Part shown: positions 4,110-36,954 of the stretch, piece by piece | How positions within the stretch are numbered: position 1 is the stretch's first letter | Layout: every line of letters starts with the position of its first letter | Assembly: GCA_013368325.1 (NCBI GenBank) | Contig: JAACJK010000005.1 | Location: 248,001-312,000, forward strand | DNA length: 64,000 nucleotides | Source of the DNA: Ephemerocybe angulata | Taxonomy: Eukaryota; Basidiomycota; Agaricomycetes; Agaricales; Psathyrellaceae | Reading direction: 5' to 3' | Notes under the pieces: model-generated | Seen by the model: the letters and a program-made list of their open reading frames with translations, nothing else | What the model was told of the DNA's origin: nothing | Database searches by the model: none | Translations under genes and position numbers: made by a program

Positions 4110-7045
4110 ACTTTGCACTCCCCGTTCTCTGCGAACCATGCATTAGAACCTCATTTCCGAAGTGAGAGTTTGTCCTATAGATATCCTTCATAGCTTTGGA
4201 GATTCGAGCATTGACGAGTATGGCGAATGCACATTTCATTCCATTTGTTTACCTGTCACAGCAAACGCACATCTATGGATAGGACCGATATGTATCAAGG
4301 TCGAGTCCGATTGTATAGACAATCTGCAACACAATCCACCGAAGGCGCCGATGTAAACACTAACACCGGCGACGAACGCTCGGGGAACACGAAGGGACCG
4401 AGATCGAACTGACCACGCAGAGGCAGCGTTGGTCCCCTCGCCCACGCCACACAGTAGTCAAGCAAGCGTTTCCCACAAGGACGAAAGCGACGATGGTCCT
4501 TTCAACACGGGGAAATCGAGACCGAAAAGGATCGTGAAAATCACGAGCAACGCGACGGACTCACCAGTGAGGTCGCCCAGAGTAGGAGAAGCCTGTATCG
4601 CCGGTTCCAAGACAATGAAGCGTTCGTCAGTACCTGTCGCTCAAGCAATTAGAGAATGGACTTAGGAAAGAAACGATAGATCAACAGAGAGAGATTGAAC
4701 GTAAGAACCTCAAGCACCGTGGCACAGCCCACTGCGCACCGACGACACCACTCTCTGCCTTCCGCATCTCCTCCCTGGCGTTACCTCCATGTATCACCCA
4801 GACCGAACTTTGTCATCCACGCTCTCCCAGCCCGGAACCGTACTACCCCGCCCTGTCCAGCGAGAGCACGGACGCTGGGCTGGACGGTGCAGAGCGCATG
4901 TTCGCACGCCTGTAGGTCGGTACGAGAGATGCAAGATCAAACCAAAAAGGACTGCTCTAAAGAAATAAAGAAAGAGAGTTGAGTGCCAACCAGAACACAA
5001 GCTTCGGTACGGATGATTGAACGCACGCAAGAACCGAAACGAAAATAAGACCAAGAGAACCAACTCACTGCCCGATTAAGCTCCCGCGCAAGGTCCTCCC
5101 GGCCCAATCCCGACCCCGCTCGTCCCATAACTTTCCCATGCGACTTCTACCCGCTCTATTCCTCCCACAATGCCCCCATACTCCAACTCCAGTATCCTCT
5201 CTACAACATTCGGCAATGGCGGCGGCAGCGAAGGCGGAACGCAGTCGTCGGTCGTCGTTGTCACTTGAGTAAGCCCTGTCCCTCCCATTCTCAATAGCCT
5301 TCCCATCCGCGTCGTCCTCTTCTACCCCGAGAGCTCCTCGCTGGCCTCCCCGTCCCTCTCCCCGCCCCAATCGTTCCTGCCGTCTTCCTTCCCACCTCCT
5401 CTCTGCCCCCACCACCGAAGGTCAACGCGGAGAACGTTCAACGCACATCCTGCTTCTCCAACGCCCCCACACACCCACACACCCAGGCTCCCCCACCCAG
5501 ACTCCCATTCGCCTCCACAATGGACAGCTGGCGAGAGCAGTGTGTTCGCTATGAACGCCTCGCCCCATCAACCCTCAGTCGACAGTCGGCACCAAAGCAG
5601 AAGTCGGCCTTGAAGAGAAGTCGAAGTCGACGGCAACAGAGAAGCGTAGAGCCATGACCTCTCTTCCTCGCCTCGAGCCCAGTGTCGAGCTTGTGAAAGC
5701 GGCCGGGAGCGCAGGCGGTGATTGTAGAGGCGGCGGAGAGAGTGTGCAATTTGGGTTTCGAGTGGGGCGGGAGGGGTGACCATCATTGGTAGAGCAATGG
5801 ACAGCGTCGGTTCGCGGTGAATGGCGTCAGGGATGGAGGTGTGAGGAAGTAAAGGTTGATTCGGTGAGGCCGATAGCAGAGTTGGCGTCGTCTTCCAGGT
5901 CTTGACATTGGGCGGGTGGTGTACGCTGTCGTCGGGTTCGCGTTCGCGTTCGCATTCATGTTGGTGTCGGTGATCACAGTCGTTGATGTTTCGTTCGCGC
6001 CTGCACCGTAGGCGTGCCCGAGATAGGCACCCCAGCCGCCCGCCCCCACCCCAGGACAGCGATCTATGATCCTAAACATCGGCGGCAACCGATCCGACCC
6101 TACCTCCTCCTCGAGTTCCGCGGTTCTTTGAATGCCAGGTCGTTTGTCCAGCGCACGTTATGAGATCCTGGGTCGAGTGTTTGAGGAGAAAGATGCACTG
6201 CGATGCTTGGAGGGGCCGAGAACGCGAACCAGCCTGTGGTGGGAGGTCGAAAGTAACACTGAGGGTGGGCGCTTTGACCTGATGGGTCTGCAGACACAAC
6301 AGAGAGAAGGATACGTCAGTTACTCAGCATGTATGGAATGTGACCACGGAGGAGAGACGTACCTGATGATGACTCTACCGAAGGTATTGGTGGTGGTAGG
6401 GCCGTAGAAGGGGACGATGAGCGAGACGGAGGTGACGACGCTGGACGAGCAGGGAGCATCCCAACGGACTCCTCTTCGCTCAGACCGAGCGGCGCGCACG
6501 TTGGAGAACAACCGTCAAGCTCGCCAGGGGTACAGCAGCACCTCCCACTCCTCGTCCCACTCCTGTTCCTCCTGTTCCTACTACGTTCTGGTCCCAACTC
6601 CAGGAACCGACAACGACGTCGTACATGCACTCTTCCCTCCTCTAAGCGAAGCATGCGACGTCCTTCGCATAAGTCACGGCGCAGCCGCGGTCGGAGCGAG
6701 CGACGTGAACGTAGAGCCTGATCATGACGCGGAGATGGAGGACTTGTGCGAGTGGTGTTGTGGCTGTTGCGGCTCGAGAGAGGGTTGGCGTTGGGATTGA
6801 GTTCTTGCGAATAAGAGTCCATGCGCTTTCCCAACTTTAGATCAGAGCCGCCCAGTCGACAAAATTCGGGGAAGATGAAGACGAAATGGAACGATGAGGA
6901 GGAGGAAGGAGAATGAACGTGTTGGTTCGCTAACAAGCACGATTGCCCCAATGCATCACCCCCGTCACCCTGCATCTGCCGTCGGCCGGAGCTCCGGTGC
7001 GGCGAAATTGCCAAGTTGATAGGGGCTTCGACGGGCGTCTAATTG
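4110..7045 (-). repeat. R unit 1 (segmental duplicate)
   Basis: About 2.9-kb unit seen six times in the window in the same orientation. Landmarks in order are: an ACACTAACACCGGCGACGAA block near 4360; a block near 4830-4890 ending GAGCGCATG; an AAGCAGAAGTCGGC block near 5595; the R gene on the minus strand; and a final GGGCGTCTAATTG box near 7035. The first third holds no reading frame that is conserved between units. Confidence 0.6.
5550..6822 (-). pseudogene. R1, Ser/Pro/Arg-rich hypothetical gene copy
   Basis: Copy 1 of the R gene family. Translation would begin MDSYSQE at 6822, matching the M-E-P-S-Q-E start of the other copies. An intron shared with the paralogues lies at 6288..6362 (GTACGT...CTGCAG). 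After it, the frame that aligns with the other copies contains GPSKHRSAS, RALDKRP and DRLPPMFRI, but needs a switch of frame and crosses a stop. No domain is recognised and the product would be largely disordered. I judge it decayed; the function of the family is unknown. Confidence 0.4.
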
Positions 7046-7539
7046 CAAACTGGTTTACCGACCTCCAGCACTCACGAATCCGTGGATGGGGTCCAGAATG
7101 GGCAGAAACCGCGCAGGGAATACGCCCACCCACCATTCGATCGTATCCCATAGACAGGTAGTCTTCACAGCATCGATAAAAGCCATAAATAGATCGCTAA
7201 TTTAGAGAACATGCCAAGCATTATGACCATGTTCGCGATGATAGCCACACCACTGTGGACCTCCGCTACCCATGTTATCGATCTCGAAAGTCTTCGTCTT
7301 GTTCACGCGCGGACCCTTGAAGATAGAAGCGATCATCCTTCGATGATCGTGGAAAAGGAAGGTGACGAGTACAAGCGAGTACATCACCAACGTAGAGTTA
7401 GGTGGTACGTATGGGGGAAATGGGCTTGAGCGCCACGCGCCTTCAAGTTGTTGATAGTTGGCACAGCATGGCCGGCGAGGCCGCTTCGTCTGTTCACATC
7501 GAGCGAGTGACTGAGGGAAAACGGCCATTCCCTCACGGT

Positions 7540-13941: not shown

Positions 13942-13968
13942 TATGGCACGAATACCGTGCAGAATTAA
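13942..13968 (+). repeat. E1 left terminal inverted repeat
   Basis: 27-bp end, inverse complement of 23165..23191 with one mismatch. The outer 13 bases TATGGCACGAATA are shared with E2. Confidence 0.85.
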
Positions 13969-14305
13969 CAGCGAAAAATACGTACATTTTTGGGCATATT
14001 TTGAGGAGAACTCACTTATTTCGGTACACCTCAATTCAAACGAGACTTTTGGTATGGTACATCGAGATCTTTTGAGTAATAGTACACCATATAAATGGGG
14101 TGCAGAAAGGGTACATGCGCCGTAGTGCGGAATGGTACATGGATTTCCGAGCAATCGCGGCGTTGGTACATATGGGAAACGCCTTCCGAAAATGGTACAC
14201 CCCATGACTTTCACGTGTGGTGGCGATGCACTGGCCACCCTGGCATCGCGTCGTTGATTGTTTCGTTCCACCTTCATCTCTCGAGAACCAGACCTTCGCT
14301 ATACC

Positions 14306-17063
14306 ATGCCCGAGACAGTAGAAGGGCGTGCACACCACCTCACATCGCTATGGGGCCTAGAGGCCTACCCCGACTCAAGCCGGCAGGTTCAAGGCCTGTG
14401 GGCCGACTACACCGCAACCGAAACAAAGGCCGCGGAGATTCCTGAAGGCATTGTCCAGAAACTTACACCACAGACGACACTCCGGCGTGGAAAGCATGGC
14501 AAGCAGACTCCAATCATAGCCAAGGAGCTCCAAGGCACGGATACAGAACCCCCAGCCATTGCTATCACGTCTCTTGCTTTGAGAGGAGTCCACTATTCAG
14601 TGCGGGCGCTTATTGTTGATTTGGGTCTGCTTTGGCTCAGAGTACGTTCCGTTCCGTATCTTTCTAATCTATATCAACTAAGTTTATCCTCAGGTGGCAT
14701 ACCTCACACACACCTCCGTTCAGGTCTATTCTCGGATGCGCTGGGAGGAACTACTTCTCGTTTCAAGCAAGGTGCGCATTTTGAAGGCTTTTCATCTTGT
14801 TTTCATCTTGATACTGTGCTCAACTGCCCTGGCCTTCGTTTATGCAGCTTCGGAAGTTCTCCGTGGCACTTGCCATTGAGTGCGTCGACTTTGTTCTCGC
14901 GTTTGTTTCTATGGATAAGCTTTTCCAGGTGCGCAGTGTATGCTTGACACAACCCGCCACGACTGACAGCTCGTCCTCAGCCTATATGGTCCACTACGCG
15001 CACCGGTCTGCCTGTTGAACCGCCATATGTACTGGATGAGTACGGGAGGTTCCTGGATGGCGTTGCAGTTTGGATTAAGTCGCGCTGGCACACATCCCGA
15101 TTCGACTTCGCTGTGAACGCTATCCGGGGAGCAAGTGATGTTTGGATTGGAATTGGAGCCTATACCGTCAACGAGGTGTTCTTTATTGCAGGTGCGTCAA
15201 TGGTATGATCCTGGTGCTTCGACTATCTAACAAATGCTCAGGGATTCCGATGGGTATTCGCGAATGCGAGCTTTTCAATAGTCCGTCCCGCACCGCTCGC
15301 TTGTGTGAGGCTTACTGGGCTTTTGCACAGCGTGCCGAAGATAAACTCCCGTAAGTCTTGGTGTCCTTTGGTTATTCTATTACCGTGCTTCAAGCTTCAA
15401 CACGTTTTGACACTTCGACGCTTTTCGAGATTTCGAGTTCAGCGGTTTCGAGTTTCGAGCTTTCGAGTTCCGAGTTTTCGAGTTTCGAGTTTTCGAGTTT
15501 CGAGCTTTCCAGCGGTTTCGAACTTTCGAGTTTCGAGCTTTCATCGACTTCCGAGCTTTCGTGTTTCCGAGTTTCAAGATTTCGAGTTTTGAGCTTTCGA
15601 GTTTCCCGTTTTCGACTTTCAACTTTCGAGTTTTCGACTTTCAGAATTCGTTTTGAAGATTGAGAATATGTTCTAACGCTGCACACACTCCCAGCGCTCT
15701 CCTTCGACCAGCATGGGACCGTGGGTTGCTTGCCCCCAGTCGTGATGAGCGACATGCTTATCCAGAGAAAATGCTTTACATCTATGGAAAGCTCTCGTTA
15801 TCCCTTCCCACATCATTAGTCCAACTGGCAGAGGAGCACAATGTGAGTCGTTTAGCGCTTGTTTTGATCTTATACTCACCACCAACTAGCGGAACGTTCG
15901 CGAAATCACCACGGTCTTTGAACGAGAAGACATTCCCTTCTGGTTTCGCAGTGAATGGCTCGAACTTCTACCTGATCCATTTGAGCCTGCTTATATCCTC
16001 GAAAGCTTGCAATCCGATGGAAAGTACCACTTGGGGCACTTGATATTTCCACGGGAATGGAATGCTCTCCAGTCGTACTATCAGTTCCCATGCCCAACCC
16101 GAACCGACCCTCTCACACTTGCATACACCTGTTTACGTGAGTACGGATTCAACACAAGCGCTCACCTGCTAACCCGTTATGTTAGATGTTGATATCGAGG
16201 CTGCCGAAACTCATCTACGGCCTATTTCTGATATTCAGTCAGTATTTGCAGATCTGAGCGATAGGTCGAACCGTCGAAGCATCAAGCCTTATGCTATGTC
16301 AACATCGAAGAAGGGGTGTTTATGGTCGCTCATTGACCTCTATCCTAGTACCAGTCGTGCTAACGAAAAGTGAGTTCTGACTACCCAGTCCTGCACTGTA
16401 CTCACGAAGGTTGTATGCGAAAAGAGAACACTCGACGTCTGTTGCGATGAAGGAGATTCCTGAAGAACATGCTTTTATTAAGCAAAGCTCCGACAAAGGG
16501 GTGGCGATTGGGGCCTTTGAGTGGGCACCCAATGGACGAGTTTTGAAGCAGGGAAGGCGTGTTTTAAGGTGTGTTGTTTCTCAATCGATGCATTTGGTCC
16601 GATGCTAACTTGGATTGGCAGGGTACCCATGCGAGATCACTATTCAGCCGAGTTTTCGGAGAACGACGTCAAGCAGCTCACAATCCGCACCTGGAAGAAG
16701 GAGTATATCGAGAAGGAAACTGCCAAGATCATCAAGTTGGCGAAGAGGAAAGGTCGAGAGCCAACAGCAACAGAGCTGGCGGTTGGATCAAGGAAGCTCA
16801 GTGACGCTGCATGTCGCCAGCGTGACCGCAGGGTAAAGCAAGCATTGGAGGAGCACCATCGACTTTTTGGGGACCTGAAGCGAAAGCGCGAGGAAGACCT
16901 GACTCCAGCAGTATTGACAAGTGGGGATGTGAATGCGTTGCCAAAGCCAAAGCGCGTCTCGGTGGACAAGCAGCTTTTGGCAGCTTCGGCGAAAGAGAAC
17001 ATTGACATGGGTCCCCGGGCAACTCGATCGCGCTTGGCTATGGCTAAATCTGTATCTCTCTAG
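14306..17063 (+). CDS. E1 gene A: conserved-looking transposon accessory protein, 664 aa
   Basis: Ten exons join without a stop: 14306..14641, 14694..14771, 14848..14928, 14981..15191, 15242..15350, 15695..15842, 15890..16136, 16186..16369, 16410..16568 and 16622..17063, total 1995 nt. All introns are GT..AG with consistent phases, and the ATG sits in a good ACCATGC context. I do not recognise the family and see no signal peptide or catalytic motif. The last 150 residues are highly basic and helical (EYIEKETAKIIKLAKRKGRE, KRKREED), suggesting a nucleic-acid or chromatin contact. The gene converges on gene B with 41 bp between. An unusual 344-bp intron (15351..15694) is filled with TTTCGAG repeats. 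A role with the transposase is inferred from position only. Confidence 0.75.
15400..15660. repeat. TTTCGAG simple repeat inside an intron
   Basis: About 250 bp of imperfect TTTCGAG/TTTCGAC hexamer-heptamer repeats within intron 5 of gene A. The other nine introns of this gene and its neighbours are 40-80 bp, so this is a local expansion. Confidence 0.7.
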
Positions 17064-17104
17064 CTATTAGAGTACTTAGTTACTCGCAGTCCAGTTGAAT
17101 TACA

Positions 17105-18738
17105 TCAATCTTTTTGACTATAGAATGCTGTAAGACGAAGAACAACCTCACAGTAAGTATCTATACCCCAAGCACCATCATCTTTTTCCAAGTCCATGCC
17201 TCCTAGTGCGTCCCTTGCCTCAGAAAGCACCTCGTCATCTGTTGTTACAATGCCTGCCTCAATCTCATCATCTAAAGTCTCGAAGTAGTCTGACCTGGGG
17301 GGAACAGGCTGGCTATCTTCTGCACCTGGCTCATCACCCTCTTCTCCATAGTCGTCTCCCACATTAGATACATTGTCCCCTGCATCAAAATCCCAGTACC
17401 CTGCATTGATAGCCCGTTCTTTGCTAAGCTCGTAAAGGGCGAACGGCGTTTTGTAGCGTTCAGTGCGCAGCGAATGGTTGTTCCATGATGTTGTCGTTTC
17501 GTCAAGGGACTTTTGGATTCGAGGGTGGTAGACAAGGAAAAGTGCGGTGAGGTGCGTCTTGCAGTCGGTGTCGAGAAGTTCCTCCTTCTCTAACTGGCTG
17601 AACAGTTGGCGAAAAAACTCGAGAGTATCTCGCCTAACATCGCGCCATAGGCGCTCAATACGGACATTATGAACAGACCTAATTATCCGATTAGCAGATA
17701 TAAGATAGAGAGCAATGATGACGCACCTGCCACGGAGATATGCACGATGAGCTATTCCCCACTTCTCTACCATCTTCCGCTCAATCTCATTATTCTCCGT
17801 TCCATAGTCCCCTCGCACCCGGCTTGGCCAGCCAAACTGTGAGACCGCAGTCATAAAGCATGCTCCAACTGTTTTCGAACGCTTGTTATTTGAGCAAACC
17901 AGATAGATGATCATTCTTGAGTAACCGTCGACACAGCCATGGACAATGAAGCCCCATGGCTTCAACTTCTCATTCCCATCTTGATGCCATAGCGCGTTAG
18001 AGCCTCGAACCCGGTATACACGTCGCTTGGTCGCTCCCCGAAATCTAGATAGGGTTTCTAAGCGTTAGCAAAAGGCTATGCAGGATCGAGATATGTGCGA
18101 GAATAGTACCTCAGGGCAACACCCTCCTCATCTACTCTCCTGAGTGAAGCCCGAACACGGTGCAGCTGGATATTCAGTCCACCTGCAAGGAGGTGACCTC
18201 GAACCACAATAGAGCCAGAAAGAGGGTGGTGGAGATTGATTTGGGATACATATTCGTCCAAGGTTGCATCGTCGATGGTACTGTACGCGATTTTGGCTGT
18301 AGATATGCCTGCCTGGCCCAAGTGGTTGTGAAGCGTACGAAGCGAGACTCCCATTGATTCTGCGATATCCTTCCAGGTGTTTCCCATATCGTGTAGCTGG
18401 ACGGCGCGATGTAGATCGAGGTTGTATCGGGCGGGGCCAGGCTTTCCAGTTGCTGAGCGTGAACATTGTGGCATATGAGCTTTATGTGGCTTGCCTAAAT
18501 ACTCCATGAGTGGGAGGAGCACAAGGTCGACAAGTCGGACACATTCTTCAATTTCTGACTTGGTCAGAAGTGAGTAGTCTTTGAGGTCGGTCAAAATTGA
18601 GCGACTGGCTTGAAGTTGGCGAGCCAGACCAGACCCCCGTTCGATATCGACATTTGGCACTGAAGAGAGGTAGAAGCGAGTGTCGAGGATGAGGCGGTCT
18701 GCCTTTTCTAGCAAATGAGGGAGATAGTCATAGGACAT
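17105..18738 (-). CDS. E1 gene B: integrase-like DDE transposase, 506 aa
   Basis: Three exons join cleanly: 18110..18738, 17727..18044 and 17105..17678 (1521 nt). The N-terminal 200 residues are helical, with a helix-turn-helix stretch (DMGNTWKDIAESMGVSLRTL). The catalytic core is of the retroviral-integrase type: Asp232 in ALWHQDG, Asp289 in VRGDYGTEN and Glu324 in NVRIERLWRDV, giving D-x56-D-x34-E. It resembles the RT-free integrase-core proteins known from animals and fungi rather than gypsy integrases: it has no zinc-binding HHCC domain and no chromodomain. The C-terminus is acidic. It should cut and join the TIRs of E1. A longer start at 18810 is possible; I chose 18738 because the extra leader is hydrophobic and unlike the rest. 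Confidence 0.85.
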
Positions 18739-18859
18739 GAGATATGGTGGAGATGAAGAAAGAAACAGAAATTGCGAGCATGGATCAAAGGATTGAACAA
18801 ATATGAACAAGCAGGGTTAGGCTTAGGTCCCGCATAGTACCTCCAGCGGAATGGACTCT

Positions 18860-19360
18860 ACGAAATTATTGGTCCAAACGTAAGCTCAAAAAGCACAATA
18901 TACAGTCTCTCAAAGGTCTTCTGAGCACAAATCTAAAAGAATCTAGAGCCCAAGGTGCAAAGTTGAAGCAGAATACCAAGTTCTCTGACCGATATTGGTG
19001 GGATCATCAACGACCAGGCTGGATCAGGCCGCCCATACGCCGGCGACATTGGACTGTAAGAAGTTATTGGTCTAAACCTAAGCTTAAAAAACTTGATATA
19101 TGGTTTCTCATAGGTCTAATGAACACAATTATACAGAAATCTAGAGCCCAAGTATCTAAGTTGTAGCAGAGAGTCAAGTTTTCTGACTGACAGTCAAATG
19201 ATGGGCTGCCATCAAAGTCCGAGTGTGCGCGTGTGTTCGTCCAAACTGATGTGCCAATTGCAATACCTCTGATCTATTGGTCTAAATCTAAGACAGGAAA
19301 CACATATATAAGTATACTATAAGGTCTAATGTATATGTATGTGCAAAAATCTAGAGCCCA
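18860..19360. repeat. Three degenerate ~190-220-bp repeats between genes C and B
   Basis: Each unit begins with a TTATTGGTCTAAA-like word (near 18868, 19057 and 19277) and ends with AATCTAGAGCCCA (near 18940, 19140 and 19350). Between the two words lies a TCTCAYAGGTCTAATG-like stretch. The block fills the gap between the end of gene C and the start of gene B, where the gene B promoter should lie. Confidence 0.6.
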
Positions 19361-19366
19361 GCATCG

Positions 19367-22300
19367 CTAGTTTCGGCGCGAACCAATAAGTTGGACGACT
19401 TCCAAGTACAGCTGCTTCAACTGTTCTGGTACGTCCGTATTCTTGTCTGGATGATATATCTATTGAAATCCTTCAGCCAGAGTTCATGATAATGAGTAAG
19501 GGAGGGCGTACAAGCATCATCTGCTTCCATATATGGGGTTCATCCATGCCTTCGAAATCCGCCCACTGCTTGCGACGAGACGGAGCAGGGAGGAGCTGCA
19601 GAATGCGTTGATAGAGTCGAATCATCGGTAGCAGTGGTGTTTTCAATAGCTCTGCGATAATAGATTCAACGCTCTCAGTATCTGTGTTGAACGGTGTTGA
19701 GCGCAGCTGAGGTGGAACTTTTTTCTTGGGTTTTGGCTTTGGCTTTGGGTTGGGAGGTGGGGGAGGGCCATTCGATGACGACGATCCTGATGATGTATTC
19801 GGGTTGGACCCTAGGTGCTCCTTTCGGTACTGTGGATCCACCGATGGATAACTACTGCCCTTTTTTGGGAACAGAGTCTCTGGAACTTCATGGTCTGACA
19901 GCTGTGGGGTTGGCTCTCTTGCTGCTAACGTGAATCAACGATGAGGACACTATAGATATGCATAGTATGCATACTTACGTTCAAACTTGAACTCAAACTT
20001 GTGCGACCCCCACTCTATCTCTTCATCATCATCGTCGCTTACAACAAGAGGTCGATTTCTAAGTCATTCATTAGACACTACAGTCGACATATAATATAAA
20101 GGACATCTACTTAGTTCCACTGCTAGAGCTGCGAGTGTTACGAGTCGACCCTGGCTTCTCTGAGACACCGGGGTTAGGATTGTTCTGCATTTTTGCTTTG
20201 GATTGACTCTATCGAAATTGAACGAGTGAGCATGCAGCTAACTGACCTTAACGAAGTATGAGATCCATACCTTGGTCCAGTTGGTCAGTTTTCGGGCTAG
20301 CGCTGAAGCGAAAGCCTCGAGCATATTGAAGAGGGGATAGTACAGGGGATGGTCGAGGTCCATGTCATCCAGCAAAGGATCGAAGATCTCCTCCAGCATG
20401 CCCTGCATTCCAAAGCGTCCAACGAGCAACTTGCGGTCGACCATTTTGAGATGATCGTCGAGGGATCCAAAGTCGTTGGTGAGCGCAAGCTTGAAGTCAT
20501 CCAGCGACGATGTCGAGATATTCAATTGGAGAACAGAAAGAACTTCAGTTGGCTGGGCTTCCTAAATGATATCAGGTCGTTAGAAGAGTCAGGCTGGTTA
20601 ATACCGGAGAGAGAACATACAGCGAAGTAGGGAGCCTTCAACTGAAGGACTGAACGAAAGTGGCTGAAGCCAGGAGGGTCATACAGGGACCGTTTTGCCC
20701 CGTACCGCCCACGGAACACGAGAACGAGGTTGAGAATGGCCTTCCCATAAGGCTCCATAGCATCGATCATCTTGTTGAGCTCATTTGACATATCCGTAGG
20801 GCTACCCGCAGCCGCCTTTTGGATCACAAGGTAAGCGCGATGCATGGAGCTGATAATGGGGTGCAAGCCATGGGGACCCAAGCGAAAGACTGCATCGAAC
20901 TCATCCCCAACTCCTGGATCGAGCCCGTTCGCTGTAGCTTGCGCCGAGTGGGAGGTTTCGTCGAGTTCAAGGATGAATCCAAGAGAAGGGAGAAAAGCGT
21001 TGATCGCGGGGAAGAGCAGTGTCGAGGCATCTGGTCCCAGAAATGTCGTCCCAGTAGTAAGAGAGTCGAGTGCTTCGTTGAATTGAACAAGCTTTTGATG
21101 AGGTTTCGAGTAAGGATACATCGTAGTTGGAGGCCACTGGTACGAAGAGTCAGTTCGCTGTATGTTACTTGTGGAATATGGAGTGGTGAGCGTACCCAGA
21201 CAGAGGTTTTCGGACCTGGTGCACTAGGATGCACATTCACGGTCAAGCGATATGCAGTGTTGAGCGACGAGGAATCTGAGAATATTGATAATAAGCACCC
21301 ATGACTCGGAGTCTGCCACAACGAGCAGAGAACTTACGAAGAAAATCGCCAACGCTCTCATCATCGTAGCTTGGAGGGTTCCTGCGGGCCTTGGTGGAAG
21401 CAGGCTTCTTGCTTTTGGGCTTGTTGTTGCTGTTGTTGTTGAGGTCGTTGTGAGTGTCATCGTCGTTGTCGGAAGAGGAGTCAGCCCGATCGCCGGTGGT
21501 GTCATTGTCGGACCCATCGGAATCTGAGTCAGCCATGGGCTCTTCCTTACGCTTCTTGCTGTACTGCGACAGGCCATCAACAGGAATGTCACCACTCCCA
21601 GCAGACAGAGCGATATAGACGAGATTTTTGAACTCGGCCTTTGCCTGGCGATGTGCAGCAATCCTGGCTCTGAATGATTTCGTGAGTGCGACCCTCAGGA
21701 TCTGACGGAATGACATAACTCACCCAAGAATATCGTGGAATTCAACAGATCCACCGACTCCATCTACGAGAGGCTCTAGTAACTGGCGACCACCTTTTCC
21801 CTGAGGCACCGGCACGAGGAGACGCCATCCCCGGATAGGATCGCAGAGAGGGTCAGCCTCCGTCGCGTTCTTTACGAGAGGGCAGCGAGAAAATCCGGTG
21901 CGAACCGCATAGTCGATATCGTATGGGGTCATGCCAACATTGATGGTGATATAGACGACTTGGCGAATCTTCTGTAGGACTCGCATTCTATTCAAAGGGA
22001 CGGTCAATGATAGGACCCACAGGAAGCAGGAAGCACTTACGATGCAACTGAAGGCTGCTCGAGTCCCCCCTCATCTACCGCATCCGTACCATGCACGAGG
22101 GTGAATAGGGCTGTAATCTGCTCTCCTTTTTTGAAGACACGGGCACTCGCAGAACCGGACTTGTTCGTCTTCTTGTTTGGGACAGCAGAGTCGTTGCCAT
22201 CGTTCTTGCGCTTGCCACCTTGAGCGCCGGCCTTCGTCTTCGTCTTCGAGGAACTCCCAGTACCCTGTATATCAGTGAGTACGATGCCATTCTACAATCA

Positions 22301-22740
22301 GTGAAGGAGGGAGCGACACGTACAGGAGGTTTATTCACGTTGAACGCGTTTTGAAAGCGCGTATCATCGCGCTGCTTTTGCTCAGCTCGCTCCCTCGCAA
22401 GCTTCGCAGCCTCACTAACAGAGGTGAAGGGAGCCTGACCTGTACTTGGCTCTGCAGCAGGTGGTGGAATGAACTCGTTGGGCATACTCGGTGTTTTCGA
22501 CCGATGTCCATCCTACATCACCAAGTTATTAGACAAACACATCGCATGTGATGAGAAATAGAAACTTACATTCACGCCCGCATTGGTCGAAGCATCGTCG
22601 TGATAAGCATGCTGCATGCCGTAGCAGCCGCAGAGGCATTTTCGACCTCGTTCATCCGGAACAGTGGTTTCAAGAGAGTAAAAGGATGTGCAGCTTCCCT
22701 TGAAGGCGCACGCGAGGTTAGTGCAGCGTCCAAGCACCAT
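19367..22740 (-). CDS. E1 gene C: Cys-rich protein with J-domain-like C-terminus, 916 aa
   Basis: Twelve exons join in frame: 22570..22740, 22324..22512, 22041..22264, 21724..21987, 21338..21669, 21196..21275, 20621..21136, 20271..20561, 20111..20208, 19979..20058, 19512..19924 and 19367..19459 (2751 nt). The N-terminus is Cys-rich (LGRCTNLACAFKGSC, then CLCGCYGMQH), which suggests metal binding. The middle has a basic stretch, then an acidic Asp/Ser tract (DSDSDGSDND). A Pro/Lys linker precedes a helical end with IYHPDKN, the HPD signature of J domains. The final exon carrying HPD is short and is only visible after splicing. The family is not known to me. A J-domain would imply recruiting Hsp70, for example in complex assembly; this is inference. 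Confidence 0.75.
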
Positions 22741-23164
22741 TTCTAGGGGAATAGAAGTGGTGGGAGGACGAAAGGGATGAGAACGAACAAAGGTGGCCGG
22801 TCAAAAATTTCGCAGCGTCTGACCAAGCCCCCGGCAAAAAGTTGTGCAGCTCGGGATGGTCCGACGGAAGTAAATGTGCGGGCTATTCATTTATGGAAAT
22901 GGCGCAGATAAGCGCCGGTGGGCGCTTCGGCTGCCATGCCCATGCCACATGTACTACCTTGGCGAAGTGTACCAATAATTGAAAATCTTCGGATATATGA
23001 CATGTACCACTCAACGGTGCCCATGTACCAACCAATATATCATAGGTGTACTTATTTTTCAGAGGTGTACTAATTTCATTTTGACTGCAGGTGTACCACG
23101 GGCGGTCTCCTGTCATCCAGACTGTACTACCAAAACAGTGAAAAAAGCAGTGATGTGCTATTAT
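22741..23164. other. E1 right subterminal region
   Basis: No gene. Contains about eight TGTACC/TGTACT motifs between 22945 and 23125, mirror images of those at the left end; likely transposase binding sites by analogy with other large DNA transposons. Confidence 0.5.
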
Positions 23165-23191
23165 TTAATTCTGCACGATATTCGTGCCATA
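23165..23191 (-). repeat. E1 right terminal inverted repeat
   Basis: Inverse complement of 13942..13968 with one mismatch. It is followed by GG and then the left end of E2. Confidence 0.85.
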
Positions 23192-23399
23192 GGTATGGCA
23201 CGAATATTGTATCAATATTATTTTTTGGTACAACAAGCTTATTTACGTCCATTTGGGGGTACACCCTTCCCCTCAGACCCAGTGAGAATCGGAATCTCCT
23301 GGGGACATCCCAGAGTATCTTATTTCACAAAATCCGAGTGCCACTACTCCCACAGTATCCTAGAAGCACCTTTTTTGAAGATCTGATGCAATAAACACC

Positions 23400-25240
23400 T
23401 ACAACTCGCACAATGTAGTGATGATTTTTGCGTCCAGTATGTCAAAAGCCTCTTCGTAGATTGTGCGACCGCTTCGTAGACTTCTCTATGCACTACATTT
23501 TCTGGGCTAGTTGCCTTCGTTTGCTTTGCATTTGCTTCAGGCGTTTTTGATGTCCGAAATATGATAAATACACGGGTGTGGACTTGGCGCAGACGCGTCA
23601 AGCGCCCCAGGCCTTTCTTCTCCTTACCACAACCACCCGCTATTGATGCTCGAGTCCAGCTCTCCTGCGCGACCTCGCTGTTCCGCCACAACCCCGCCGT
23701 TTGTCGCCGAATGACTGTTGCCCATCTCCAAAGCAGAATGGCGGTTGGTTGTGGCAAGTTGTCAATGAAACCGAAGATGTGTGATGGTCAGTCCGAAACA
23801 GATTCGCTCTGGTCGTACACGTCAACTCATCATTGGGCATTCTAGTAGGCTTCATGGTGTATTCTGCCAGGCGAAGTGGAATCGCCTTAAGTTGCTTCGG
23901 GTTGCTCGGACTTGGGTGCGGCTCAGCGCTCAGCACTTCTCCCCTGCTCAGCGTGATTTGACCACCCCGCCATTAGCGCCTGCCTCCCCGCACATGCGAG
24001 CCATCCAACACCGGACCGTGATGAATCAAAGGCCCCTTCCCTCTGTGTTCGAAGTTCCATCTCACCCTCGCACCAGCCGCTGCCAGTTTCGGAGAATACG
24101 GTGTGGCAGGAGGTGGCAGGCTGCCAGGCATGTAGCATCCCCTTGAATACTTATTATGATTCCCACTCACTCTCACCTACCAGCTCTGGAACACGTTACT
24201 ATCGACGTTCCGTCTCGGCGCTTCGTTCTATGCTGTACGGTGAGTTTGGTCATTGGCGCCGCTTATTTGGGACCCATGCTGACTTTCGCTCGCCGGCTCT
24301 CGAACGCGTCCCTATCCTGAGTGTTCTCTCTCTCTCTCTTGGCTCCTGAGTCCAGGGGTGCAGAAATAGGAGGAGCGGGGAGAGGGAGGAGGAGGGCACC
24401 GGGATGGGTTTCGGTTTGTGTCCAATTTTCGGTACATTCCCTACATACTCCACCAGTGTTTGTCCATCAGTGCATGTGTTTATTTCCGTTCAACAAGCTG
24501 AACGTGACCGTGTCGAGACGCGTTCACGCGTTATTTGGTTTGATACCATATGGTACACTCCGCGAGGTATATAAGCCAGCACTCCATCATCAAATCCGCA
24601 TCCCTTCTCTTCCCTCTTCCACCACCATCCCAGACGTGGTGGCAGAGGGACTTGACGGGATCTCGACTTCTCGTCGAGCCTTCGGGCACTTGAGGGGCGG
24701 GTTGCCAGTCACACAGCTGGCAATGCGGGCTCCGTTTAAACGGGCTCCTCACGATGCCGTTGTTTAAATGTAGCTCTGTAGTACTTGCCATTTAATTGTA
24801 CCGTGATTTAATTATTTCTTCGTCATTTAATCAAACGAGCGAATGCGATGTTTAATCAACCCCGAGCCCTGCAGTACCTGATTCAACGCGAAGAAAGAGT
24901 GGGTTTGAGGCCATTTAAACAGGGAAGAGCAGCGCCCCCCTAACCTTGATTAATCGCGGCGTTGAATATTGTTTAAACAACTGTGATTTAAATCGAAAAC
25001 ACTTGCCATACGCCGGCTTGATTAATCAAGGTCCATCGGACTTTTGCAGCCGTGTGTATGCATATGATAGAAATGACAATTTGTTGTGTATTAACGGGGA
25101 GCTATTGTGAGCGATTCGGAGAGGCAAAAAAGTGCCACTTTTTCCTCCCAGAGTACCCTGGTGTCAATGTATTCTATGTGTATTAAAAGATACTCTGGGA
25201 TACTCTGAGGAGACTCCATTTCTGACTGGGCCTCAGAGCA
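23400..25240. other. E2 interior without recognisable gene
   Basis: No supported coding region. It includes a 290-bp cluster of TTTAAA/ATTAAT words at 24730-25025 and may itself be an insertion, because E1-like left-end sequence resumes at about 25250. Confidence 0.35.
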
Positions 25241-25674
25241 TCAGTTTGGTACAATGGTGAGCTGGGCATCGGTACATTGGCAAATTTAGAATATATACAT
25301 GGTTTTGCAATGGTACATTGAGGTTAATAAAAACGGTACATTTATATGGCAGAAAGGGACATGGCGAACGAAACGAGGACACTCCCACTTTTGAAATAAA
25401 TACACCGGCGAACGCTCACCAGCATAGTATACATGGAAGGGAGTTCGTACTGTAGTCTGTAGTACATAGTATTTCCGTATATGACTTGACCTCCATCCAG
25501 GTCCCAGTGCCAACCGTCCGAGTCCCGACGGCGGGCGTGTGACCGTCTCCTCTTCCTCTGTCCCCTCCTCTTCCTCCACCGCTGCGTTGTAAGGACGCGA
25601 TGGCTTACATCATCCCATCGTCCTTACTACACGCGTTTCGATCCTTTCGTTCCTTAGCTTAGTCCACCCATGAA

Positions 25675-25992
25675 TAGTGATCACCACGGGTTAACCCCGG
25701 GTGGAAATGCCCTGACCCGCACCCGACCCGCGCCCTAACCCTACCCGGAACCCGCGGGTCAACCCGGTCAAAACGAGCCCAAAAACATCCAGATCGGATA
25801 AGAAATGGGCGAGATAGGATGGAAATGAATAGTAGTATTCATTTCTATCCTATCTCGCCCAGATCTCGTCCATTTTGGACGTTCTTGGGCTCGTTTTGAA
25901 GGGCACGGGTTGGGAAAGGCCAACCCGCACCCCACCCGAGCCGGGTTCAACCCCGTAACCCGCGCGGGTTTCTCAACCCCTGCCTATCACTA
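25675..25992. mobile_element. hAT-like MITE, 318 bp, palindromic
   Basis: Starts TAGTGAT and ends ATCACTA, with imperfect inverted termini rich in GGGTTAACCC-type words. It is flanked by a perfect 8-bp duplication CCCATGAA (25667..25674 and 25993..26000). The centre (about 25805-25865) is a long near-perfect palindrome around AATGAATAGTAGTATTCATT. It has no coding capacity. The duplication size and the TAGTGAT ends point to the hAT superfamily. Confidence 0.9.
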
Positions 25993-26469
25993 CCCATGAA
26001 CCCTGTCGTTCGTCCTCGTTCGCCCAACTAGACGTTGTTCATATCATGTCTCGTCGTCCTCAGTGTTGACTCGTGTTAGCCCCACGAGCCTTCCATGCGT
26101 CCTCCAACTGGAACGAAAGTTGGGAGAGTAAACGAAGTGTGATCCTCATAGACATCTGACAGAGTGCTGGTTGCTGAGTACGCCGTGGACAGGGAGCAGA
26201 GTTACGCACTTGATACTACAATTTACGGCTGTGGCGACTAGGTGGGGACATCGTTTGATGATGACACATCTACAGTACAGCTTGTGGCCCCTAAACAGAG
26301 CGATGCACAGATGGGTACCCGGTATATCGCATTTCCAGCTCAAATGCTATCGCTATGATAGATGCCAATTCCGAGTAAATTGTAAGCGCCCATTATTCAT
26401 GCGCTTGCCCAAACAAATGATTTCGTATATAATCAGGCTACAGTCAAACAGAGAACTTTTGAGATCCCA

Positions 26470-26768
26470 ACTCACGCATTCACCTTGTCTCGCTCTACCT
26501 TGTCTATCACGCACGGATTCAAGGCTCGCTAAACGAGACGATTACATCGTGGAATAACCACTCACTTTGCACTCACTCCGAACCGAGAGGTATAAGACTC
26601 CTCTTGCCCTCTATGAGCTCAGTCGCGAGCCTGCTATCAACACAGGCTATTGAAATGGCCATGTGGGGGACAGACCTGAGGATGTTGATGATGATTATGA
26701 TGTTGAAGGGGAGTGTGTTTCAGTGTACTTCAGAGAAGGGGGCTGAGGAGGAGCCGGCCGTGCCCCGG
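26470..26768 (+). pseudogene. E2 integrase-like gene remnant, upstream piece
   Basis: On the plus strand, translated pieces align with the C-terminal third of E1 gene B: LVYHARIQGSLNETITSWNN, then after a frameshift RYKTPLALYELS and an in-frame stop after AINTGY. The catalytic core is not present nearby. The piece runs straight into the gypsy LTR at 26769 and continues at 39720. Confidence 0.75.
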
Positions 26769-27695
26769 TGTCAGCAAACGACCAGTCTGGTGCGCTGCTA
26801 ACCCTAACTTAGGACAGAAGACGAGAGAGAGAGAGAAGAAGCGAGAGAATCAAGGCGAGAGACTTGTAGACAAGGCCGTGATATTGACCAGCTAAAGACT
26901 GGGGAAATACAGTGAGATCTACCTAGGTTATATACTGCTATGCTTCGTGACCGTGACGTGACTATGGCTATACGAGGCTGTATGTACTGTGCAGAAGCTG
27001 TGGAACACTATGTATGAATCCTCGGGTACGTTACCTGGCTGTCCGGGTAATGTATGAATCCTCGGGTACGTTACCTGGCTGTCCGGGTAATGTCACGTGA
27101 CTCCGGAATTTTCCGGATTTTCGTCTGAGGGGTCCAGGACGACTCCTCAAACACTCTTGGCGGCAACTCTTGTGCATAGAAAGTAGCATAGGTATCTAAA
27201 TGAATGTATTTGAGTCTACGTAAGTACAAAAATGGAGGTACCAGGAGGAGAATGTGTGTAAAATGGACCTCAATGCCTCCCAATTGCCATCAGTGGCTGC
27301 GTTAGGGGCGTTGCCTAATCCGGAAGCCCTCCTCATCACCGGCCTTTGTTCGGCCTCCCTGGCAACGCCGGGCCAATTCCGTGTGGCAGAACGGTCCATG
27401 CGTGTTCACAATAGCCGTAGATACATGCCAAGACTATGTAAGGAATGACCGTGTATGAGTCGAAGAGCTGTGCGAGTGCTGTGCATATGATGTCATGCTG
27501 ACTGAGGTGCTGACTGATGCTGTGCTGGTCCCGTGATGTAGCAGGTGACTTGTGCATGTGATCGCACGTGCTGTGTCACGTGACCGAGACACGTCTTTAT
27601 AAATAGTAGAGAAATGAAAGACGAGAAATAAAGGAAAAAGAAAAGAAAAGAGAAAGAAAAGGAAAAAGAATAAATAGATCATCCAGGTCGTAACA
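26769..27695 (-). repeat. Gypsy 3' LTR (927 bp, with insert)
   Basis: On the minus strand it begins TGTTACGACC and ends CTGACA, matching the other LTR. It is about 460 bp longer because of a 418-bp insert (27015..27432) and a ~31-bp indel near 26938-26968. Confidence 0.92.
27015..27432. mobile_element. Insert in the 3' LTR with 8-bp flanking repeat
   Basis: Sequence absent from the 5' LTR and bordered by ACTATGTA on both sides (27007..27014, 27433..27440). It starts with a 40-bp tandem duplication containing GAATCCTCGGGTACG. No terminal inverted repeats are visible, so the class is unknown. A deletion in the other LTR is the alternative. Confidence 0.55.
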
Positions 27696-27697
27696 TC

Positions 27698-27711
27698 ACC
27701 CCCCCTTTAGC
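27698..27711 (-). promoter_or_regulatory. Polypurine tract of the gypsy element
   Basis: On minus the tract reads AAAGGGGGGGTGA directly upstream of the 3' LTR start; it is the primer site for plus-strand DNA synthesis in LTR elements. Confidence 0.7.
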
Positions 27712-27734
27712 TTCGTCGTCCTCGACGATTTCAG

Positions 27735-29559
27735 CCTCTCTCCCCCTCGCTCGGTAGTGTCGGATTTCCTTCAGTTTCCCATCTGTCCAGTCAAAGATCG
27801 CTCTCTTGGTCTCGGTAAGGTTCTCGTAAGGGATAAAGCGGAGTTGGTGTGGTTGGATCCATCTTGGTGCACTCGGGTGTTTTCGGTGGAAGTCAGCTAT
27901 AGCGTCCGCTGCATTATCGACGTTCCGTTCCGGTTCCCATGTTCGTTCTTCCTCAGGGTATCCAGCCCACTCTACGAGGTAATGGAGCTTGCCTCTGATG
28001 AACTTTGAGTCGTGGATGGCTTCAACTTCATATCATTCTTCCGTTTCGTCAACGGGTGGTGGTGGCGGTGGTTTCTGTTGAGAGGGGAATTCGGGCTTTT
28101 TGAACGGAGTTAGGAGTGATTCGTTAAAGACCGGGTGAATAGATTTCCACTTCGGAGGGAGTTGGAGTTGGTAAGCAGATTGTCCGATCTTCTTGATGAT
28201 GGGGAATGGACCATAGCGTTTATCTGAGAGCTTCCGAGAGGGACGAGTGATCGAGATGTTAGTCCCTTCGAGGTAAACCTTGTCTCCGGGTTTGTAGTCT
28301 ATGGCATCCCGGCGATGTCGGTCATAGTTCTCCTTCATTTTCTCAGCTGCTGCCTTGAGGCTAGAATGGGCATCCTCGTGTACCTGCTTCATTTGTTCAG
28401 CAAACTGTTGCGCAGGTTCTGACTTTACACGTGTCCGGGCTTCTTTTCCTTTCCAAGGGTGCTGTCCAGAGTTGAGGAAGAATGGGGAGTAGCCTGTTGC
28501 TGAGTGGACCTTGTCGTTGTACGAGAAGACTGCTAATGGGAGCCATTCTGCCCAATCATCCTGTCATTCGCTGATGAAGAGCCGGAGGTACTGTTCAAGT
28601 TCTTGGTTGATACGCTCGGTTTGTCCATCGGTTTGTGGGTGGAATGCAGTGGATCGGTTGTGCTTTATTCCCAGAAGAAGAAGTAGATCTGTCATGAAGT
28701 TGGAGACAAATTGGGTTCCTCGATCGCTGATGACCTTTTGGGGAAGACCGTGGTGTCGGAAAACATAGTCCCTGTATAGTTCGGCTACTCCTTTAGATGT
28801 CAGCTCGGTGGTCGTGGGTATGGCTTCGATCTTCTTGGAGAATCTGTCGACAATTACAAGTATGGCATTACTCCCATTGGACTCGGGTAATGGTCCGATC
28901 ATATCAATAGAGACGATTTCCCAGGGTCTGGATGGAATCTCGTTTGGGACTAATGGGGCTGCTGGGGAAGTGCGTTTGGGTTTCGTCCTTTGACAGGCTT
29001 CGCATCCTTCTACGTATCGTCGAACTGAGTCCTGGATCTTGGGCCACCAGTAGTTTCGAGTGATGAGTTCTCGGGTTTTGTACTGTCCCGGGTGTCCGGC
29101 GGTGGGGGCGTCATGGTGTTGTCTGATGATTTCCTCCCGCAGTTTCTTGTCTACTGGTACGTAAATCCGTCCTTTCCAGGTGATAATGCCATCTTCCGTT
29201 TCTTCCCATCCATCTTCCTTCTGTGAGAGTGCTTTTTCTACCGACTTGTCCCTATTCCTGCACACCTTCAAGATCCGTCGCATGACATCTTGGTCTGTTT
29301 CAATCGAAAGTGCTCGGAACCACTCGGATTTCAGGACTGTGACGTTTTCGTTGTCCCGTTCTCCTTTGTCGTGACCATCTCGTCTAGATAGAGCGTCTGC
29401 CTTGGCCATGGTTTTCCCAGGTCGGTGATGGAGTGTGAAGTTGTAGTCCTGCATCTCGGTGGTCCATCTCGCCTGTCTCCGGTTGAGCTTCTGGGGTTTC
29501 CTGAAGTAGCTAAGGTTCTTGTGGTCTGTGTAACATTCGAAGATTTCCTCAGCTCCAAG
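27735..29559 (-). pseudogene. Gypsy pol 3' part: RNase H end, integrase, chromodomain
   Basis: From 29559 leftwards on minus: the RNase H remainder (CYTDHKNLSYF), the linker with HRPGKTMAKADALSR, the integrase zinc-binding region with a C-x2-C pair (CEACQRTK), and the catalytic core with SIDMIGPLP, ISDRGTQF and FHPQTDGQTERINQ (Asp, Asp, Glu). The integrase C-terminus and a chromodomain follow (YLVEWAGYPEEERTWEPE near 27930-28000). Two in-frame TGA codons interrupt it: after LRLFISE (28564) and after VDETEE (28033). Both could arise by single transitions. The domains are otherwise well preserved, which suggests a fairly recent death. Confidence 0.9.
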
Positions 29560-29566
29560 CAGGTAT

Positions 29567-32500
29567 TGGGTAGGCGCAATGCCTGCGAGGGCTCCGGATG
29601 TTTGTACATGTTTGCTTCCCCTTATCAGGTGCAGTTTTCATCCCAATCCATTTTGCGCAAAATCTGTGGCCCGCATCCATCCAATTCCATCGGAAATCGT
29701 GTCCAAATCATTGAGCGGAGGGTGCCTAAAGCGGGGATTGGGGGAAATCGCGTTCAATAGGTTACTTCAGATAACATTTCAATACTTCCTGTCCGAAATT
29801 CGAAAAAAGAGCCTTTACACACCCTAGCTAACAGTTCCCTGAGCACTCTTACAAGTTTTTGAGATCTGAAAGTCAGTAGAAATTTCAGAATTTAGGTCAC
29901 AATAAATGACGCGACAACGCGCCAATTTGATTATGTAAGCCCACGTCAAGGCGCGCTCGAGACGCGCTTGACGCGGCAATTATCGACATATTCCCCCCCA
30001 AAACGCACTCCCACTCACAGTCCTTACTCTCAAACATGCTATATTCACACTCATTATAATTTACTATGTCTAGGTCGTGTCCGAAGCCCAGAAAAGGCAA
30101 ATCTCGCCAGCAACTCGCCGCATTGAAGGAAGGACGTGACGCATCTCGTAAGACGTCACAAGGCGGCAAGAAGCCATTCAATTCTGGCATCGACAGGCGC
30201 GACAAGTTAATACAGAAACTGAAGGACGATCTAGCCCACCATAAGAAGCAGCTGGCTCTGTACAAGAACCGATATTACTCAGAACGGCGGCGTTCTGCAC
30301 GCCTTACAATAAATCATGCCCGACTGAAGGCGGATTGCAAGGGGATCAAAGGCGAGGCTCAGAAGCTGCGGGAAACAGTGCGGAAGGTGGGAGACGATGC
30401 TACGAGGGACAGAGAGGAGATGCAGTTGGAATTCGCATACCTGAAGGATAGAGTTCGGAGTTTGGAGGCGGGAAAGCGAGAGCTTCAGCGCGACCGGACT
30501 ATACTACGGAAGCGGAATGCACGGATGCGAGTCGCACAGGAGAAACTCAAGGGGCAGGTACGCAAGCATCCACGGAAGGTTCGGTCAATGGTCCGTGGGT
30601 CATACAGCCGGCAATTTCGCGCAATGGCACGGTATCTAGCCTCAACGGGCATGGCTGAGAGCAAGGTGGGGGAAAGCTTGAGGGAGATAGCTGGAGTGTT
30701 TGGGACGGAGTTGGACCGGACAATGAGCAGGAGAACGGTGCAGCGGTGTATTAAGGAGGGAGGGGTCGCTGCAGATCTACAATTAGTATATGAAATGACT
30801 ATGACAAGCAGTGAGTACTCCTCCATTGGTTTATTCTCAGACTGTACTTACTAAACTTCAAAGAGCTCTGCTACAGCTCTGATTCTACGTCACACAAGCG
30901 AATCGAATACGAGTCCAGGCACATAGCCATGAAGGTCGTCGATTACACCGACCCATCCGCAGAACCGCAGTGGCAATTGCGGTCCCTTGGTGTGGATACA
31001 TCCGTCGATCACACCAGCGAGACGCAGATGGCAGGTTTACGGGCGAGGCTGCGCGAGCTCGAGGTGCTCTGGAACTCAAGCCCCTTGGCGAAGCGAACAG
31101 GACGGAAATTCACTGCAGATGACTTTGTCTATAAGCTCATTGGGACAACTGGGGACCATGCGGCAGATCAGAAGAAAAGCCATCGCATGCTCGTTGCATG
31201 GAAGATGGAGGTCATTTTTCTGCGAATGGGTGAGGAGGCGTTATTCTCAATGGACAACCTCAGCGTAGTCTCGCTTCTACTCGCTCTCAGCGCGAAGCAG
31301 GTGGACCTTGTGGGCGGACAGGAAGTTTGGAATAGACTGGGGGTAGAGGAGCGCAGTGTAGCGCAAACCGAGGTCGTACGGCAGGTGGGGAAACAGGTTT
31401 TCGAGAACCTGCCTGACAACGACCAGCTCCAGATGTCCCGCTGCATCCGAGGTGGCTGCTTCCTGCACAAAGATCTCAATTGCTTCAAAGCCGGGGACAA
31501 AGCGATGCAGGCCTGCTACGCAACACTCGACATCCCTCCACCAAGGCTACTTGCCAATAAACAGAATGCTGCGGTGCTCGAAGGGATGGTGAGTGGAGGA
31601 AGTATGTCGAAGGATCAGGAGCGGGCGCTGGAGTCTTCAAAGCGAGGAGGGAGCAAACTAGCTGAGCTGGGAGGAATGATTTGCAAAAACTCGGATACGA
31701 AGAAGGGCCAGCAAGATCTCTATCGAATATACATGAAGGACGTCACCGGGGTCGAGGTTCCATACCCAGAGGTCAGCAAAACGCGTTATGGATCGGTCGG
31801 TGAAGCCGCGGGCACAATGTTGCAGTTTTGGGAAGGCTTCGTCGGATTTGCCGGGCACATTCGAGACGCGAAGGATCGGCCGGGGCACACCAATATCGAA
31901 AAGAACTTCGCCGAAGGCCTCCAAGACATTCCGACACTTACGGAGCTCGCTGTACTGGCAATCTACAGTGTTGCCATGTCCCGGCCTTTCATGCGACATG
32001 CTCGGCTGCACGACAACTTACTTGAGTTGGAACCATTTGTCCAACACAAGCGCGCACTCCTGGACAGCATCGTCGAGAACCCACACATCTGGACGAGACC
32101 AGGCGCTCATTACTCCCAGGTATACGTCGACAAGAACGAGCCGGATGAACGCGCGATCGCCGTCTTTGCCGCCGTTCACAAATTAGCGCCCAAACTTCCA
32201 AATCTGGACACCCTCGTCGTTTTGTTCGCCAGGGCGTCTCGGGAGGCATTGGAGGATCGGTTCATGGATGAATTCAAGGAAGGGGGTGGAATCGACACAC
32301 TCACAGCCGAAGAACGAAAGGACTTGTTTATTCCGTCGACAAACGATGCCAATGAAGGCGCGCTGGGCGCTTGGAGAGTGGCTCAGCGCCACCGAGCTGC
32401 CGAAACCCTTCACAAGTTCAACTCGGGTAAACAGGCAGCTATAAACAAAACTGAGAGCTTTATTTCAGCTGTCCTTACCGAAGAGGAGGATCATTCGCAT

Positions 32501-33152
32501 CTACGACGCACCGCTCGACTTCGAGACGAAAGCAAACTCCAAAGCAAGATCAAGCTTGCACAAATAGAAGCTGACAAGAAGAAGGCGGCGGAAAATCGGG
32601 AACGGGAAGCAGCTCGGTTGCAGGTACAGCAGGAGAAGACTGCTGAAATTGCCCGAACTGGTGAGCACCTAGTGCTGGGCGAAGTCGAGATCAGCAAGCT
32701 ATCGAAGGACGAGTTAAACCGTCAACTGGATTACCACCGTAGCGCCGAGAGTGGGATCGACATGCCGAAGGAGACCAGGATACCTGCGAAATCCAATATG
32801 AGCAACAACTCTAAGCGCATAGAGGCTCTTCTCTCCGCAGTTCAACGCTACAAAGCACGCATTCAGGTGCCAGAAGTCGAGGGAGAGGGAGAGGGTGTTG
32901 CTTCAGTTGAGGGCTTTGAGCGGGAGTACGAGTTTGACTACCATGATGACCATTTTTAATTTTCGGACGGACTCTTATACCTCTAATTACTATATACCAT
33001 CTACTGTACATATACCTAGTCTTATTGTTGCATATTAACCCCCTCCCGTCGTTTCGAGGACCAGTGAAGAGTCGAAAGGCAGATTAGCCACTTTTACGGT
33101 GGCTGTACGCTTAGTCACCTGCCATCAGCATGGCAGGAATTGCGCCTACCCA
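29567..33152 (+). mobile_element. T3: 3.59-kb DNA transposon with intact putative transposase
   Basis: It splits the gypsy pol between RT and RNase H. The ends are inverted repeats starting TGGGTAGGCGCAAT, 19 of 20 bases matching. The target duplication is CAGGTAT (29560..29566 and 33153..33159), or CAGGTATT if the first T is counted as target; 7 or 8 bp cannot be decided. A single two-exon gene fills it. Removing the element and one duplication restores the gypsy reading frame around WRQYL. Confidence 0.92.
30066..32959 (+). CDS. T3 putative DDE transposase with coiled-coil N-terminus, 946 aa
   Basis: Two exons, 30066..30810 and 30864..32959, joined by a 53-bp GT..AG intron, give 946 aa without a stop. 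Residues 1-190 are strongly basic and helical, probably coiled coil plus DNA contact. A region ending MSRRTVQRCIKEGGVA looks like a helix-turn-helix. The join creates YSSDSTSHK and IEYESRH. Likely catalytic acids are Asp255 there, Asp346 in TTGDHAAD and Glu746 in NDANEGALGAWR, as in RNase-H-fold transposases with a large insertion; the assignment is inference. I recognise the pattern as a recurring Agaricomycete transposon protein without a settled superfamily name. The C-terminus is Lys/Glu-rich. It is intact, so T3 may still be active. Confidence 0.8.
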
Positions 33153-33159
33153 CAGGTAT

Positions 33160-34499: not shown

Positions 34500-34510
34500 G
34501 GGGTCACCAG

Positions 34511-35044
34511 TTACACTACTTCGGTAATGGGCCCGTTGTTGTTTGGACTTCCATCAGCGTTATAGACTGGTATGGGAAGGGGTAGCTGTCGCGTGTTGAT
34601 TCCCTCTTCTTTGACGAATGCAGCATCAATACAACTTCCGGTAGACCCACAGTCGATAAGACCTTCGATAGAGAAGCTTCGCTTATCATCACGTGTGCTT
34701 GCGACAATGTTGGCTGTAAGCTGCCTGTCCGTCCTTAAACTCCTTATGTATTGTTTGGGAGTCGCAAGGCTGTTTAGTGCTTCTACTACTTCAGTGTCTG
34801 TGAGCTTTCGGAGTCTGGCAACGAGTTCATCTCCTACTTCTCGGACCTTCTTGTGATGTGTCCATGCAAGAAGAAGTCCTACTGCTCGATCGGGGCTATC
34901 ATCAAGTCGCTGCGCGACCCATTCTGCCGTTCCTGGTTTTCCTTTCTTTCCTTTAAATCTGCCCTGGTTCTCTGATTCTTCGTCGAAATATAATTTATTG
35001 GGGATGGGGCATATTACGTCGGGTATCAGAATCTGAGAGTCCAT
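34511..35044 (-). pseudogene. Gypsy aspartic protease region
   Basis: The frame contains SIEGLIDCGSTGSCID, equivalent to the D-S/T-G active site of retropepsins although a Cys precedes Gly-Ser, which is common in fungal chromoviruses. It ends at a stop after PITEVV; the next domain is in another frame. Confidence 0.8.
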
Positions 35045-35076
35045 GACCAGCTCGCTTGGGCGCTCGAGTGGTCCCT

Positions 35077-36237: not shown

Positions 36238-36259
36238 AGTGGGCGATGTGGGATAGGGG

Positions 36260-36950: not shown

Positions 36951-36954
36951 ACAT

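Follow-up and report, generated by a model that had tools for sequence, protein, structure and literature searches.

Transposons of the IS3EU superfamily are recognized by TA..TA termini and usually by target duplications of 6 bp, and Ginger1 elements by an HHCC integrase N-terminal domain that precedes the core, following the criteria set out in PMC10045372. The IS3EU elements of rust fungi end in TAYGG..CCRTA and carry alpha-kinase and TET/JBP genes, and TET/JBP genes are described as cargo of fungal transposons, IS3EU included (PMC12730594). Here, a stretch of 64,000 nucleotides of the mushroom Ephemerocybe angulata (the window; contig JAACJK010000005.1, positions 248,001 to 312,000) was analysed, in which a 9250-bp element, E1, occupies positions 13942..23191 (no strand assigned; C16:261942-271191). 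E1 is probably an IS3EU-type DNA transposon that moves by cut and paste with its own transposase, the product of gene B. Its partner genes, A and C, specify a protein of predicted Fpg/Nei fold and one with a predicted J-like domain, and it is the presence of such partners on a real, recently mobile IS3EU-type element that is new. A and the chaperone-partner-like C may help E1 to undo the chemical silencing imposed by the host.

E1 shares with the described IS3EU elements an integrase-type DDE transposase without HHCC, TA..TA ends and, in its relatives, 6-bp duplications (PMC10045372, PMC12730594). It differs in its Fpg/Nei-fold and J-like-domain partners and in having no duplication of its own, as judged by the published criteria rather than by Repbase sequences. 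A preliminary description of this DNA had considered two large partner genes unusual for such elements. This view does not hold, as multi-gene IS3EU elements, such as the rust elements with their alpha-kinase and TET/JBP cargo, have been published (PMC12730594). The novelty of E1 therefore lies in the kind of its partner genes, not in its having them. The TET-positive rust elements resemble E1 in holding several genes, among them an enzyme that might reverse DNA modification, but that enzyme is a TET/JBP oxidase accompanied by an alpha-kinase (PMC12730594). E1 has neither, since A and C match no family in a Pfam search and none of the seven PF02816 matches in the genome lies inside E1 or its relatives E2 and E3. 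The KDZ and Plavaka transposons of mushrooms are likewise DNA transposons with an enzyme thought to reverse methylation-based silencing (PMC12730594), but differ from E1 in their transposases, their TET/JBP cargo and their duplications of 7 bp (Kyakuja) or 8 bp (Zisupton). The open-licence literature searched, with subscription journals and preprints outside that search, yielded no description of an Fpg/Nei gene carried by a transposon, and PMC12730594 mentions a glycosylase a single time, with reference to TDG.

Structure and superfamily placement of E1

E1 starts with a 27-bp terminal inverted repeat (TIR) at 13942..13968 (plus strand, TATGGCACGAATACCGTGCAGAATTAA) and closes with its counterpart at 23165..23191 (minus strand), the two agreeing at 26 of 27 positions. 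Inside the left TIR lies an array of eight GTACA words, six of them GGTACA (13982..14199, plus strand), and inside the right TIR an array of four TGTACC words (22968..23097, minus strand). Within the terminal 320 bp, GGTACA is found six times on the left and not on the right, and TGTACC four times on the right and not on the left. The GTAC density reaches 25 per kb at either end compared to 3.5 per kb in the interior, a roughly sevenfold enrichment, and the 16 GTAC of both ends together exceed the values of 2000 mononucleotide shuffles (mean 2.4, maximum 11). Both the single TIR mismatch and the mirrored GGTACA-type arrays of the preliminary description are thereby confirmed. E2 (C16:114798-123974, target duplication TCATTA), which contains genes B and C, shows the same pattern with 25 and 28 GTAC per kb at its ends versus 3.6 in its interior. 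In E3 (C47:752908-760764, target duplication CCTGCG), which also contains B and C, the terminal enrichment is barely present (6.25 versus 5.0 per kb).

Gene B (17105..18738, minus strand, three exons, 506 aa) encodes a DDE transposase whose N-terminal part is HTH-like and which matches PF24764 (rva_4) with an E-value of 5.3e-67 and carries D232-x56-D289-x34-E324. There is no reverse transcriptase among the 11 Pfam matches listed for B, which agrees with the earlier claim of a reverse transcriptase-free, integrase-like transposase with a D-x56-D-x34-E signature. The Ginger and IS3EU groups had been named as eukaryotic elements with integrase cores of this type. An HHCC motif (H-x2-8-H-x15-40-CxxC), as in Ginger1, is absent from B residues 1-240. 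The suggestion of IS3EU fits: the E1 termini, TATGG..CCATA, conform to both the TA..TA and the rust TAYGG..CCRTA patterns, and relatives of E1 have 6-bp duplications. Among the ten TIR-bounded elements that could be paired within the genome stretches examined, seven are flanked by exact 6-bp duplications, two by flanks agreeing at five of six positions, and E1 by CTAAAC / GGTATG, which agree at one of six and give no duplication. TIR matches at C16:114759, 114774 and 124101, C69:121567 and 123730, C104, C224 (contig end) and three at C218 were left unpaired. On the evidence of its ends and of the duplications of its relatives, E1 would thus belong with the IS3EU superfamily. With duplications in the relatives and none in E1, the hallmark is present in the family and the footprint of E1 itself is lost or rearranged; 'structurally complete', as the element had been called, is accordingly limited to ends and genes.

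The three multi-exon gene models (10, 3 and 12 exons) have reading frames that are open throughout as predicted, and the database models match that of A and, for the most part, that of C. The lengths of 664 aa for A and 506 aa for B stand as first given, and that of C is 915 rather than 916 aa. Gene C (19367..22740, minus strand, 12 exons) specifies an N-terminal Cys cluster and a putative J-like domain at the C-terminus, for which both the predicted fold and the comparison of profiles speak; J-domain proteins are marked by an HPD motif between two helices of the J fold. The database model P0001 (882 aa) is 97% identical to C, with a later start and some exons spliced differently. In the model P0004 from Coprinellus aureogranulatus, a gene C relative is joined to a Tc1-type transposase (PF01498, PF13358), perhaps because one is nested in the other or because the prediction fused two genes.

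The product of gene A and the Fpg/Nei family

Gene A (14306..17063, plus strand, 10 exons, 664 aa) is modelled from the first Met downstream of an in-frame stop (open segment 14258-14944), and it is matched at 99% identity by the database model P0008 (659 aa), located on another contig of E. angulata. The stretch 14969..15016 (plus strand) is no separate feature but lies inside gene A, where the exon 4 start region is found at 14981. Intron 5 (15351-15694) measures 344 nt, much longer than the other introns, and consists of degenerate TTTCGAG repeats.

For A, a two-domain Fpg/Nei fold is predicted across about 230 residues. Like MutM and NEIL1, the protein holds the N-terminal catalytic Pro-Glu, here in an MPE start, and a GxGx5E H2TH-like motif. 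The MPE start is shared by 8 of 14 relatives from several genera, the remaining six being partial or having a different predicted start. A differs from these enzymes in a very low sequence similarity in structure alignments (about 12-18%), in having no CxxC pair and in a large, family-specific C-terminal half outside the glycosylase domain. Furthermore, hhalign aligns A101 to Tyr58 of Fpg/Nei, so that Arg100 stands opposite Lys57 (Lys54 in NEIL1), and the position of the H2TH Asn is Ala, Val or Gly; this Lys and Asn we take to be functional residues of the family. The fold is well supported by structure prediction and profile comparison, and A is best described as a divergent Fpg/Nei-family protein.

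Copies and companion elements in the genome

On contig C224, 2.8 kb align to the left end of E1 including gene A, with no mismatches in 2807 bp, five gap openings and a different flank. Only this left 2.8 kb is visible because the contig ends there, leaving one end seen and the right part unassembled. By its alignment, the C224 copy is a second, very recent insertion nearly identical to E1, which supports the earlier suggestion that E1 is recent. The structure of the element, the co-occurrence of its genes in one genome and its recent movement are thus apparent at the level of sequence.

A-like remnants, covering parts of residues 1-266, are found in four short elements with related TIRs and exact 6-bp duplications (C43:53134-56951, C218:37936-39362, C196:47033-48385 and C16:112024-113356), where they begin about 0.4 kb inside one end, the position of A in E1. 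E2 and E3 give no match to gene A. Genome searches with C of E1 (at least 22 matches) and with its relative P0003 (at least 11) return only E1, E2, E3 and a remnant on C69 that adjoins IS3EU TIRs. A and C are not plain host genes in this genome. Of the idea that A, B and C travel together between similar TIRs, the part concerning B and C holds for E1, E2 and E3, while A is found with such TIRs in E1, in the C224 copy and as remnants in the four short elements, all within one genome; judged from these sequences, A is a recurrent but not an obligatory component. A-family matches also occur on C68, C107, C120, C143 and C215, and those on C207 and C134 have no E1-type TIR within the surrounding stretches examined.

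Possible role of gene A and alternative explanations

We tentatively read E1 as an IS3EU element whose glycosylase, A, counters silencing by removing bases that are modified or damaged, perhaps 5-methylcytosine in oxidised form. In such a scheme, B would bind the TIRs and GTAC arrays, excise the element and insert it with a 6-bp duplication, and C would recruit Hsp70 for assembly or disassembly of the transposase-DNA complex. A would be a DNA glycosylase/AP (apurinic/apyrimidinic) lyase that excises modified bases, most plausibly the oxidised methylcytosine of silenced copies, after which base-excision repair would restore cytosine. A would then act as the excision partner to the TET/JBP oxidases carried by other fungal transposons. 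The link to methylation draws on those transposon-borne TET/JBP genes, on the enrichment of 5-hydroxymethylcytosine and 5-formylcytosine reported for the transposable elements, TIR elements included, of two Agaricales (PMC8889193), and on the ability of NEIL1 to act on 5-carboxylcytosine (PMC5566547). The altered catalytic positions in A weaken this link, as does the scarcity of TET-type sequence in the genome, where PF20515 matches amount to two fragments. It is more doubtful that mushroom IS3EU elements encode a base-excision demethylase of their own, with a NEIL-like A excising the oxidised 5-methylcytosine that TET/JBP enzymes of the host or of other transposons produce. If so, A would supply the excision step for oxidised methylcytosine that PMC8889193 reports as undiscovered in fungi, and the element would reset its own methylation. 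A is a concrete, expressible candidate for this step, and its role is directly testable, as a single genome contains both a member of the superfamily that has A (E1) and members that do not (E2, E3).

Oxidised bases and abasic sites are the classic repair substrates of Fpg/Nei enzymes, and the fold and Pro-Glu are kept in A. Together with the scarcity of TET-type fragments, this would suit a working glycosylase/AP lyase for repair around transposition, with methylation uninvolved, that cleans up abasic or damaged DNA ends in the gaps of donor and target or guards the element against oxidative or deamination damage. Such a role is rather unlikely, given that the host has an H2TH-family match of its own (C128:1676248), that E2 and E3 managed without A and that no observation connects A with the reaction of transposition. 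Alternatively, A might be a catalytically dead, DNA-binding accessory that, for example, binds the TIR/GTAC arrays or bends DNA via its H2TH-type fold, as the altered Lys57 and Asn equivalents and the large C-terminal part past the glycosylase domain could indicate. The Met-Pro-Glu start, however, is required for catalysis only and is retained across several genera, which makes this improbable.

We consider it very improbable that E1 is not one mobile unit but two halves that recombination or deletion brought together from adjacent IS3EU elements, with A enclosed by chance. The missing target duplication would fit such an origin, as would the like element that begins 2 bp to the right, at 23194, with flanks agreeing at five of six positions, the single occurrence of the right-hand 592 bp of E1 in the assembly and the restriction of the C224 copy to the left part. 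However, both ends of E1 are of one TIR type that is unlike the TIR of the neighbour, and the A remnants of four other elements lie at about the distance from one end that A has in E1.

Neighbouring and nested elements

The neighbour of E1 is a decayed second element (23194-40261) with IS3EU-type TIRs matching at 25 of 27 positions, flanks CATAGG / CATCGG and two gene B remnants (26.4-26.8 kb and 39.7-39.9 kb). C16:111928-128537 is a nest of IS3EU-type elements consisting of 112024-113356, 113428-114744, E2 and a further start at 124101, behind which B remnants lie at 126.0-127.0 kb; three TIR starts fall within 40 bp (114759-114798). The short element on C43 contains an inner inverted repeat, its two arms (5294-5404 and 7218-7328 of the C43 stretch L072) each measuring about 110 bp, directly behind its remaining A exons.

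Other PF24764 matches are located on C128, C18, C110, C207 (468 kb), C143, C22, C28, C113, C162, C112 and C134 (663 kb). Several of them have open frames of close to 304 aa, and gene C matches are absent from their vicinity. A small search for inverted repeats in short flanks of seven of these loci gave no result, and the match on C143 is enclosed by a 22-bp inverted repeat. On C107, about 6 kb separate an alpha-kinase match (337607-337753) from A-family matches (343798-344721). In view of the alpha-kinase genes of rust IS3EU elements, C107:337607-344721 may represent one decayed element that holds an alpha-kinase gene as well as an A-family gene.
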